A stretch of 64,000 nucleotides of DNA. Origin: Halobaculum sp. MBLA0143. GTDB lineage: Archaea > Halobacteriota > Halobacteria > Halobacteriales > Haloferacaceae. The notes beneath the pieces were generated by a model, which ran no database searches, was not told the DNA's origin, and worked only from the letters and a program-made list of their open reading frames with translations. Below are positions 40,036 to 45,911 of the stretch, one piece after another; the first letter of the stretch is position 1, and every line of letters starts with the position of its first letter. The position numbers and the translations under genes are program-made. The stretch lies in contig NZ_JBGKAC010000001.1 in the NCBI RefSeq assembly GCF_041361465.1, forward strand, positions 1,302,001 through 1,366,000, read 5' to 3'.

Positions 40036-40314
40036 GTGAGCACAGACAGCGACACTGGCGGCGACGGGGAGATGGAGAAGATCAACGTACGGGTTCCGCA
40101 GGCGCTGCTGGCCGAGATCGACAGCGTGTGGGAGGAACGCGGGTACGCGAACAAATCCGAGTTCATCCGCGACGCGCTCCGTGACGCAGTCGACCCGCCG
40201 ACGGAACTCTCTGCGGAGGCGCTCCAGCACCTCGCCGAGAGCCGCGAGCAACGCGAAGAGGGTGAGACGGTCTCGCAGGCAGACCTGAAAGGTCGACTGG
40301 ACTCCGACGACTGA
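40036..40314 (+). CDS. Ribbon-helix-helix (CopG-type) regulator, copy A
   Basis: 92 residues from GTG 40036. The RHH core is EKINVRVPQALLAEIDSVWE followed by RGYANKSEFIRDALRDAVD, the standard beta-alpha-alpha DNA-binding dimer. The tail (REQREEGETVSQADLKGRL) resembles antitoxin C-termini but no toxin follows. Copy B (44875) differs at few residues. It is probably a repressor acting on its own operator and perhaps on the promoter of the acidic-protein gene 139 bases downstream. Confidence 0.85.
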   Translation: MSTDSDTGGDGEMEKINVRVPQALLAEIDSVWEERGYANKSEFIRDALRDAVDPPTELSAEALQHLAESREQREEGETVSQADLKGRLDSDD

Positions 40315-40399: not shown

Positions 40400-40442
40400 C
40401 ACTCCACCGTAACATTTACTAGCCGTAGTCACCTTACCCGAA

Positions 40443-40562
40443 TCACGACGCTGTGGTGCACGCCGTGGAAAACGGCAGGGCGTCCATAGCGCCCTACCAC
40501 CGCAGTGTCGTGACCGCTCACGACATGTGTCCGAACGATACACCGTCAGTAAAGCCTGACGG
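40443..40562 (+). promoter_or_regulatory. Candidate structured 5' leader / RNA switch, copy A
   Basis: A TATA box at 40413-40421 predicts transcription from about 40443. From there a 16-bp helix P1 can form (40443-40458 with 40498-40513), enclosing two hairpins: CCGT-GGAAA-ACGG (40463-40475) and AGGGCG-N7-CGCCCT (40477-40495). The 3' strand of P1 can instead pair downstream: GTCGTGA-CCGC-TCACGAC (40507-40524), ending at ATG 40525. A further perfect hairpin CCGTCAG-N6-CTGACGG lies at 40543-40562. Copy B keeps all helices, with one double compensatory change. The region is also open from GTG 40453, so coding is the alternative explanation. Confidence 0.45.
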
Positions 40563-41112
40563 AACGACAGACGCAGCGACGCTCGCGGCAGATTACGAGC
40601 AGTACCGACTGGATCTGGAGGAGCTTCCACTCCCGAGCTACCGCGCCGAGGAGCTCCGCTCGCGGATCGGCGTGGTGCGGGAGGCGCTCGCGGCGGAGGG
40701 GGTGGCTTCGGCGGGCCAGCTCCAACACCTCCTGCGGGTGGTGACGGAGGCGCTGGCGGACGTGCGCGCGGCGCAGGTCGTCGCCGCGCCGGCCGAGCAC
40801 AGCGCAGCGAACGCTCTCCCCGGGTTCGAGGAGACCGGGAGGGCCTACGAGATCACGGCGACCGAGCGACGGACCGCGACGAACGTCCTGATCGAGCTCC
40901 TCTTTACCGTCGTCGAGACGCCCACCTACGCCGACAGACGCGCCGGTCACGCCGACGGCGACGACTCTGCCGCCACAGACGACGGCGTGCCGGCAGCCGA
41001 GGACACGTCGGCAGTCGAAGACACGCCGGCAGACGACGCCACCGGCTCCGGCTCCGACCACACCGACGCCGAGCGGGGTGCCAGCGTCGGGAGCCACGCC
41101 GGGCCGGAGTAG
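40453..41112 (+). CDS. Uncharacterised acidic protein, copy A
   Basis: 219 residues if started at GTG 40453, or 195 from ATG 40525. The conserved core (from DYEQYRLDLEELPLPSYRAE through VVREALAAEGVASAGQLQHL to AYEITATERRTATN and LIELLFTVVETPTYADRRAG) is mainly helical. The last ~60 residues are an acidic, disordered Asp/Thr/Ala tail that differs from copy B. No membrane segment, signal or known motif. Between copies most core differences are at third codon positions, so the protein is under selection. Family not recognised; it always follows the ribbon-helix-helix gene here. Confidence 0.7.
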   Translation: MVHAVENGRASIAPYHRSVVTAHDMCPNDTPSVKPDGTTDAATLAADYEQYRLDLEELPLPSYRAEELRSRIGVVREALAAEGVASAGQLQHLLRVVTEALADVRAAQVVAAPAEHSAANALPGFEETGRAYEITATERRTATNVLIELLFTVVETPTYADRRAGHADGDDSAATDDGVPAAEDTSAVEDTPADDATGSGSDHTDAERGASVGSHAGPE

Positions 41113-44017: not shown

Positions 44018-44833
44018 ATGGCAACTGGTGACGCGACGGCGGCCGACACCGGCACCGACACCGTGACGGGGGCGCGTGGAACGCGGCTCAGACTCTGGAA
44101 CGCCGTGATGGCCGTGCTCCACGCGGGCCAGGGCGTAGCGATGGTGGCGCTCGCGGGGAGCGTGCTCTGGCCCGTGACGCGCACGCGGTACGGGTTCGAT
44201 CCGGCGACGGAGTCGATCGCCCCCGAGACGGTGTCGTTCGTCGACGCCAACCTCCCCCTGCTCGTCGCGGGGTTCCTGTTCGTCTCGGCGATCGCCCACA
44301 CCGTCGTCTCGACGGTCAGGTACGACAGCTACGTCGACTACCTCGACAGGGGGTTGAACCCGTACCGGTGGTACGAGTACTCAGTCAGCGCGTCGCTGAT
44401 GATCGTCGTCATCGGGATGTTGGCCGGCGTGTGGGACCTGGGGTCGCTCCTGGCCATGTTCGGACTGGTCGCCGTGATGAACCTCTCTGGGCTCCTGATG
44501 GAGCAACGCAACGAGTCGCGGACGGAGACGGACTGGACGCCGTTCTGGGTGGGCTGTCTCGCGGGCGTCGTCCCGTGGCTCGTGATCGGTGTCACGTTCG
44601 TCGGCAGCGTCACCGCCAGCGACGGGCAGTTCCCGACGTTCGTGATCTACATCTACGCCTCCATCTTCGCGTTCTTCAACCTCTTCACGTTCAACATGGC
44701 GCTGCAGTACCTGGAGGTCGGCCCGTGGCGCGAGTACCTCTTCGGCGAGAAGGTGTACGTCCTGTTGAGCCTCGTCGCCAAGTCCGTGCTCGCGTGGCAG
44801 GTGTACTTCGGGACGATCAACTCCCCGATCTGA
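44018..44833 (+). CDS. Heliorhodopsin
   Basis: Seven-helix retinal protein of the heliorhodopsin family, 271 residues from ATG 44018. Retinal Schiff-base Lys255 lies in the helix-7 motif LSLVAKSVLAWQ, and counterion Glu120 in RWYEYSVSASLMIVVIG. The conserved His pair of the family is present (His35 in VLHAGQ, His94 in AIAHTV). PFWVGCLAGVVPW and ALQYLEVGPWREYL also match known members. Heliorhodopsins sit inverted in the membrane relative to type-1 rhodopsins and have slow photocycles; their role is unsettled. The neighbouring copy-B regulator starts 41 bases after its stop, and a truncated second copy lies at 45993. Confidence 0.93.
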   Translation: MATGDATAADTGTDTVTGARGTRLRLWNAVMAVLHAGQGVAMVALAGSVLWPVTRTRYGFDPATESIAPETVSFVDANLPLLVAGFLFVSAIAHTVVSTVRYDSYVDYLDRGLNPYRWYEYSVSASLMIVVIGMLAGVWDLGSLLAMFGLVAVMNLSGLLMEQRNESRTETDWTPFWVGCLAGVVPWLVIGVTFVGSVTASDGQFPTFVIYIYASIFAFFNLFTFNMALQYLEVGPWREYLFGEKVYVLLSLVAKSVLAWQVYFGTINSPI

Positions 44834-44874: not shown

Positions 44875-45153
44875 GTGAGTACCGACAGCGACATCGGAAG
44901 GGACAGAGAGATGGAGAAGATCGACATCCGGGTTCCGCAGGCGTTGCTGGCCGAGATCGACAGCGTGTGGGAGGAACGCGGGTACGCGAACAAATCCGAG
45001 TTCATCCGCGACGCGCTCCGCGACGCAGTCGACCCGCCGACGGAACTCTCTGCGGAGGCGCTCCAGCAGCTCGCCGAGAGCCGCGAGCAACGCGAAGACG
45101 GCGAGACGGTCTCGCAGGCAGACGTGAAGGATCGACTCGGTCTCGATGACTGA
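44875..45153 (+). CDS. Ribbon-helix-helix (CopG-type) regulator, copy B
   Basis: 92 residues from GTG 44875. The core EKIDIRVPQALLAEIDSVWE and RGYANKSEFIRDALRDAVD is almost identical to copy A; the linker to the start and the last residues (ADVKDRLGLDD) differ. It directly follows heliorhodopsin and has its own operator. Both copies should recognise the same site, so cross-regulation is expected. Confidence 0.85.
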   Translation: MSTDSDIGRDREMEKIDIRVPQALLAEIDSVWEERGYANKSEFIRDALRDAVDPPTELSAEALQQLAESREQREDGETVSQADVKDRLGLDD

Positions 45154-45237: not shown

Positions 45238-45280
45238 TGCCTCACCGTAACATTTACTAGCCGTAGTCACCTTACCTCAA

Positions 45281-45400
45281 TCACGACGCTGTGGTGCACG
45301 CCGTGGAAAACGGCAGGGCGTCAGGAGCGCCCTACCACCGCAGCGTCGTGGTGGCCCACGACATGTGTTCGAACGATGCACCGTCAGTAAAGCCTGACGG
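45281..45400 (+). promoter_or_regulatory. Candidate structured 5' leader / RNA switch, copy B
   Basis: Same architecture as copy A. P1 45281-45296 with 45336-45351; hairpins 45301-45313 and 45315-45333 (loop TCAGGAG instead of TCCATAG); alternative hairpin GTCGTGG-TGGC-CCACGAC at 45345-45362 touching ATG 45363; hairpin CCGTCAG-N6-CTGACGG at 45381-45400. Relative to copy A the A-T pair closing the alternative hairpin became G-C, and a G-U pair in P1 became G-C. Confidence 0.45.
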
Positions 45401-45911
45401 AACGACAGACGCAGCGACGCTCGCGGCAGATTACGAGCAGTACCGACTGGATCTGGAGGAGCTTCCGCTCCCGAGCTACCGTGCCGAGGAGCTCCGCTCG
45501 CGGATCGGCGTGGTGCGGGAGGCGCTCGCGGCGGAGGGAGTGGCCTCCGCGGGCCAGCTCCAACACCTCCTGCGGGTGGTGACGGAGGCGCTGGCGGACG
45601 TGCGCGCCGCGCAGGTCGTCGCCGCGCCGGTCGACCGGGACGTGGCGAACGCCCTTCCCGGGTTCGAGGAGACCGGCAGAGCCTACGAGATCACGGCGAC
45701 CGAGCAACGGACGGCGACGAACATCCTGATCGAGCTCCTGTTCACCGTCGTCGAGACGCCCACCTACGCCGACAGGCGCGCCGGTTGCGCCGACGCAGAC
45801 GCCGACAGACACGCTGGAGTCGACACCGACACCGACACCGACGCAGACGCCAGAGCCGACATCGACGCCGGGAGACACACCGGAGTCGACGCTAACGCCG
45901 GACCGGAGTAA
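45291..45911 (+). CDS. Uncharacterised acidic protein, copy B
   Basis: 206 residues from GTG 45291, or 182 from ATG 45363. Core nearly identical to copy A. The C-terminal tail (from about residue 165) is different: a run of Asp/Thr/Ala/Arg units (DTDTDTDADARADIDAG) that looks newly expanded. The faster tail evolution against a frozen core suggests the helical part is functional and the tail only provides solubility. Confidence 0.7.
   Translation: MVHAVENGRASGAPYHRSVVVAHDMCSNDAPSVKPDGTTDAATLAADYEQYRLDLEELPLPSYRAEELRSRIGVVREALAAEGVASAGQLQHLLRVVTEALADVRAAQVVAAPVDRDVANALPGFEETGRAYEITATEQRTATNILIELLFTVVETPTYADRRAGCADADADRHAGVDTDTDTDADARADIDAGRHTGVDANAGPE

Follow-up and report, generated by a model that had tools for sequence, protein, structure and literature searches.

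We asked whether the leader shared by two copies of a gene in Halobaculum sp. MBLA0143 is an RNA switch. The two copies lie in a 64,000-nucleotide stretch of genomic DNA (the window), in which an earlier note had pointed to a 16-bp helix (P1, 40443-40458/40498-40513) enclosing two hairpins (P2 and P3) in a three-way junction, with a 3' strand that can pair instead with the bases before ATG 40525. RNA folding recovered the junction at these positions in copy 1 (-63 kcal/mol, z -7.1; 0 of 200 shuffles folded equally well) and returned the same predicted shape for copy 2 (z -4.3), in which all helices are kept as the note had claimed. The alternative pairing was also confirmed: GTCGTGA (40507-40513) pairs with TCACGAC (40518-40524), touching the ATG, and an equivalent stem forms at ATG 45363 of copy 2. 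As described, the differences between the copies preserve pairing, the pair closing the alternative hairpin changing from A-T in copy 1 to G-C in copy 2, and a G-U pair of P1 becoming G-C. TTTACTA lies 28 nt 5' of P1 in both copies, which makes a transcription start near 40443 plausible. What the note had missed is that a hairpin within the coding sequence (40543-40562) belongs to the element, and that the element is spread through the class. Two copies by themselves would be weak evidence, and it is their relatives that provide the strong evidence. The features of both copies are listed in Table 1.

Table 1. Leader elements and downstream genes of the two copies in the window
Feature	Copy	Position	Strand	Basis or remark
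TATA-like element TTTACTA	1	40415-40421	+	sequence; like motifs in 128 parsed leaders
P1 5' strand	1	40443-40458	+	RNA folding, covariation
P2 hairpin, loop GGAAA	1	40462-40476	+	RNA folding, covariation
P3 hairpin, abutting P2 without a joining base	1	40477-40495	+	RNA folding, covariation
P1 3' strand	1	40498-40513	+	RNA folding, covariation
Alternative hairpin (40507-40513/40518-40524)	1	40507-40524	+	adjoins start codon; excludes outer P1
Downstream gene	1	40525-41112	+	ATG 40525
Coding-region hairpin, codons 7-13, CCGTCAG/CTGACGG (40543-40549/40556-40562)	1	40543-40562	+	folding, covariation
TATA-like element	2	45253-45259	+	sequence
Three-way-junction leader	2	45281-45351	+	P1 45281-45296/45336-45351, P2 45300-45314, P3 45315-45333
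Alternative hairpin	2	45345-45362	+	sequence, copy comparison
Downstream gene	2	45363-45911	+	ATG 45363
Coding-region hairpin	2	45381-45400	+	folding, covariation

The downstream protein had no match in Pfam or NCBIfam; its AlphaFold model is a helical bundle (pLDDT 84) with no significant match in the PDB. Ten paralogues are encoded in the same genome, and nine of them carry the leader directly 5' of the ATG, with many sequence differences. The only paralogue without it (L007, G000:C1:2048801-2049181) also lacks an MCSNDSPSQK-like segment at its N-terminus. Two relatives, a congener (11 copies) and a Haloferacaceae MAG, have the same leader before this protein family. In the window, a gene for a ribbon-helix-helix (CopG-type) regulator stands 5' of each copy (40072-40314 and 44911-45153) and was duplicated together with the downstream gene as a cassette of about 1 kb. 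A heliorhodopsin gene (44018-44833; Pfam PF18761, E 9.7e-94) lies just 5' of the regulator gene of copy 2, outside the duplication.

Covariance models R1 to R3, grown from the leaders of paralogues and relatives, were used for a wider search. The search for homologues, which the earlier note had proposed, recovered this architecture from 48 of 98 Halobacteria genomes and 29 of 45 genera (even sample, E<=1e-4). Four of five Halobacteria matched in a search in which none of 36 genomes from other classes of the same phylum did, and 738 kb of decoy viral DNA gave no model match. Twenty genomes, mostly picked because of earlier matches, held 2 to 30 matches each at E<=0.05. Among 135 model matches, 128 parsed to a three-way junction with an ATG 6-26 nt past P1, and TATA-like motifs in these 128 leaders peaked 27-29 nt 5' of P1. 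When 39 leaders were folded one by one, each formed the junction of P1, P2 and P3. We rejected a halovirus origin on a comparison that covered 80 viral loci and the SWIM zinc-finger protein: none of the loci, all of which share an ATG-hairpin pattern, matched the model, and the protein had no phage match.

Unrelated genes follow the leader. Besides SWIM zinc-finger proteins and a SOSS-B family protein, they encode a PadR-like regulator, an integrase-type-domain protein, zinc ribbons, proteins that carry twin-arginine-like signals, and numerous small unassigned proteins. Several of these labels come from our reading of the sequences, and for PadR and the integrase the match falls below the Pfam cut-off. 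The genes have no common theme that would indicate a ligand. Named carriers include Haloarcula marismortui pNG100 to pNG500, H. hispanica N601 pHH126, Halobacterium NRC-1 pNRC200 and Halalkalicoccus sp. FCH27. On pNRC200 the leader occupies 219732-219862 (minus strand), 5' of VNG_RS11530, and in H. hispanica N601 leaders precede HISP_RS17050 and HISP_RS17115. Each of the five H. marismortui plasmids (L344, L345, L346, L348 and L350) holds one full-length two-gene unit with its own leader, encoding about 109 and 87 amino acids in genes that overlap by 4 nt, and degenerate copies of this unit are frequent in Haloarcula. Leader elements are clustered in pairs at L103, L116 and L120; clustered elements are often divergent and face unrelated small genes. 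Such elements, present in multiple copies, often plasmid-borne and 5' of varied genes, might also be expected of a feature acting at the DNA level, such as a recombination site, the end of an insertion element or an operator.

The pattern of mismatches speaks against a DNA-level element. A DNA inverted repeat would give equal numbers of the two strand-asymmetric mismatches, but G-U exceeded A-C by 70 to 10 in P1 and by 20 to 2 in P2 (90 versus 12 together), indicating constraint at the RNA level; the fixed position between TATA and ATG also disfavors this explanation, which we regard as very improbable. Across the class, leader sequences are almost entirely different and the structure is kept. 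In 37 close leaders, double changes occurred in 20 of 34 pairs (score 0.291 versus 0.130±0.009 shuffled); in 50 leaders from across the class, double compensatory changes were found in 33 of 34 pairs (score 0.490 versus 0.133±0.009 shuffled), and this score fell to at most 0.100 when the partners were slid. The pair-keeping changes that the earlier note had read as a cis-regulatory RNA signature therefore hold far beyond the two copies. These covariation counts lean upwards, since the sequences are related and were aligned by fitting them to the structure, a bias that affects the slid controls and the single-sequence folds less. Pairing counts are likewise inflated by the selection of matches with a structure model, against which permutation tests and features outside the models (the alternative hairpin and the TATA motif) served as safeguards. 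By kind, the element would be a cis-regulatory structured leader RNA: its structure is conserved, its changes are compensatory, and it lies 5' of the start codon and overlaps it.

The alternative hairpin is absent from the structure of every model and so offers a partly independent test, with the limit that the models contain consensus sequence at its positions. We reduced the 128 parsed leaders by clustering to 57 dissimilar groups and scored the P1 3' strand against the nine bases 5' of the ATG, using as a control nine-base segments permuted among leaders. The mean stem score was 14.95; in 300 permutations it was 7.85±0.58 and never exceeded 9.54. Stems of 5 bp or more were present in 44 of 57 leaders, versus a permuted mean of 11.9 and maximum of 20. 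Chance complementarity was rejected by this test together with covariation and the folding of copy 1 against shuffles. The stems are wholly unlike in sequence (GTCGTGA/TCACGAC, GCTTCGTG/CACGAAGC, GGGTTCT/AGAACCC and GCTGTTTC/GAAACAGC), and the pair closing the hairpin beyond P1 covaries (18 of 32 Watson-Crick, versus 9.3 expected). Conservation of this hairpin in 57 dissimilar leaders, with covariation in all but one of the 34 pairs, supports the description of the locus as a candidate cis-regulatory RNA switch. As judged from their sequences, the leaders could adopt two mutually exclusive structures, one of them reaching the start site, as in a riboswitch. At positions that are C-G in P1, the alternative stems of L187, L200, L089 and L125 repeatedly show C-A mismatches, a pattern that looks as though single G-to-A substitutions tuned the mimic to be weaker than P1.

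All 49 scored stems end between positions -3 and +1 of the ATG, a range fixed by the span searched: the spacing is 0 in 24, entry into the ATG by 1-3 bases is possible in 21, and one base is left in four. A stem ending at the AUG could mark a cleavage site that yields leaderless mRNA, the main haloarchaeal route of initiation (in Hfx. volcanii, 72% of the transcripts that code for proteins lack a leader; PMC4983044). Such a processing signal fits the 24 stems with no spacing; however, cleavage at the AUG would not favor the 21 that can enter it, and we recognized no nuclease motif, so we consider this explanation improbable.

The predicted energies favored the P1 state by a median of 3.9 kcal/mol, P1 being the more stable in 44 of 49 leaders and the other state in five, which suggests that the OFF state would require an active cause. 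The same preference, of about 4 kcal/mol, is what a static structured leader would show, in which P1, P2 and P3 protect the 5' end or fix a low level of translation, complementarity before the AUG only tunes that level, and nothing switches. Genes without a common theme are also compatible with a static leader. Nevertheless, exclusive pairing kept in 57 clusters despite near-total sequence change exceeds the needs of a fixed hairpin, and the conserved apical loops described below suggest recognition; a static leader is therefore unlikely, if the most serious of the competing explanations.

The earlier note had named translation from GTG 40453 as an observation that would count against an RNA element. 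The leader would then encode an N-terminal extension, and the frame is indeed open in both copies; one RefSeq SWIM gene, moreover, is annotated from within its leader. Leader lengths, however, show no frame regularity (21/12/24 modulo 3 in the 57 clusters), 23 of the 57 leaders have an in-frame stop before the ATG, and Haloarcula annotations mostly begin at the ATG. We give such an extension hardly any weight, and the reading of the leader as RNA stands.

Conserved bases sit in the loops of P2 and P3 and not in the junction strands, suggesting that the loops are recognized. AGAA or GGAA was present in P2 of 37 of 57 leaders (shuffled mean 8.0), and P3 loops were biased towards U-R-N-A. As their innermost P3 pair, 18 of 50 leaders have U·G and 16 have C·A; these are isosteric wobbles if C·A is protonated. 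P2 and P3 have no joining base in 45 of the 57 clusters. The coding hairpin, spanning roughly nt 19-38 of the reading frame, scored 10.26 versus 6.04±0.35 for codon-shuffled sequences, with double changes in seven of seven pairs. It is the less certain part of the element, because the G·U excess is absent there (G-U 16 versus A-C 14), and it is missing in several subfamilies.

No family of Rfam 15, the purine riboswitch included, matched the element at eight loci, and the covariance-model search returned only a tRNA and CRISPR repeats elsewhere, in line with the earlier note, which had matched it to no riboswitch class. We found no description of the element in open full-text papers. The translational add-type purine riboswitch (the Vibrio vulnificus adenine switch) has a three-way junction, and the 3' strand of its P1 otherwise sequesters the start region. 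The element resembles it in the junction, in P1 as the putative switching helix and in the proposed ON logic, but differs in its lack of an Rfam match, in a P2 and P3 that usually abut directly, in conserved bases that lie in apical loops, in the unrelated genes that it precedes and in the added hairpin within the coding sequence. Leaders of archaeal S15, eL15 and L4 ribosomal-protein genes are structured and read by proteins (PMC7247131). The element is likewise a structured archaeal mRNA leader, perhaps also read by a protein, but no ribosomal-protein gene was recognized among the downstream genes examined, which separates it from that group, as does the Rfam result. Only one natural archaeal riboswitch is described as experimentally tested, the fluoride riboswitch of Thermococcus kodakarensis (PMC8241225). 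That switch, too, is an archaeal leader thought to control translation, but it is known from another archaeal class. Its fold and ligand class are different. In haloarchaea themselves, 5'-UTR stem-loops are required for growth-phase translational control (PMC2636863); like the element they lie before a start codon and occur in Halobacteria, and they have a role in translation, but they concern two single genes, form no conserved family and need the 3'-UTR. We regard the element as a new class of RNA whose proposed logic, that of a translational ON riboswitch, is of a kind already known.

Our preferred reading, to which we assign a probability of about 0.6, is that these leaders form a new Halobacteria-wide family of cis-regulatory RNA with two-state control of translation start. 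Transcription would begin close to the 5' end of P1, and the nascent RNA would fold P2 and P3, abutting each other, and then close them with P1. A complete P1 would leave the 8-14 nt 5' of the AUG free, and translation could begin (ON). With P1 partly open, its 3' strand may pair with the AUG-touching bases, which mimic the P1 5' strand, and block the start (OFF); control would probably be exerted at translation. A factor reading the P2 (AGAA/GGAA-like) and P3 (closed by a U-G or C-A wobble) loops may set the balance. The apical loops are conserved, the sequence of P1 drifts and the genes are unrelated, all of which would suit recognition by a protein more than binding of a metabolite in a pocket; we judge a trans-acting protein the more likely trigger.

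More tentatively, the element may be a Halobacteria-specific riboswitch-like class: one translational gate common to accessory and plasmid-borne genes, differing in sequence from locus to locus and responding to a single cellular cue, which could be a protein or the ionic state inside the cell. PMC4983044 describes structured leaders as atypical of haloarchaea. If true, a two-state structured leader that occurs in about half of the Halobacteria sampled, with as many as 30 matches in a single examined genome, would run counter to this. The element would link many unannotated genes and would offer a handle on start-codon selection in archaea.
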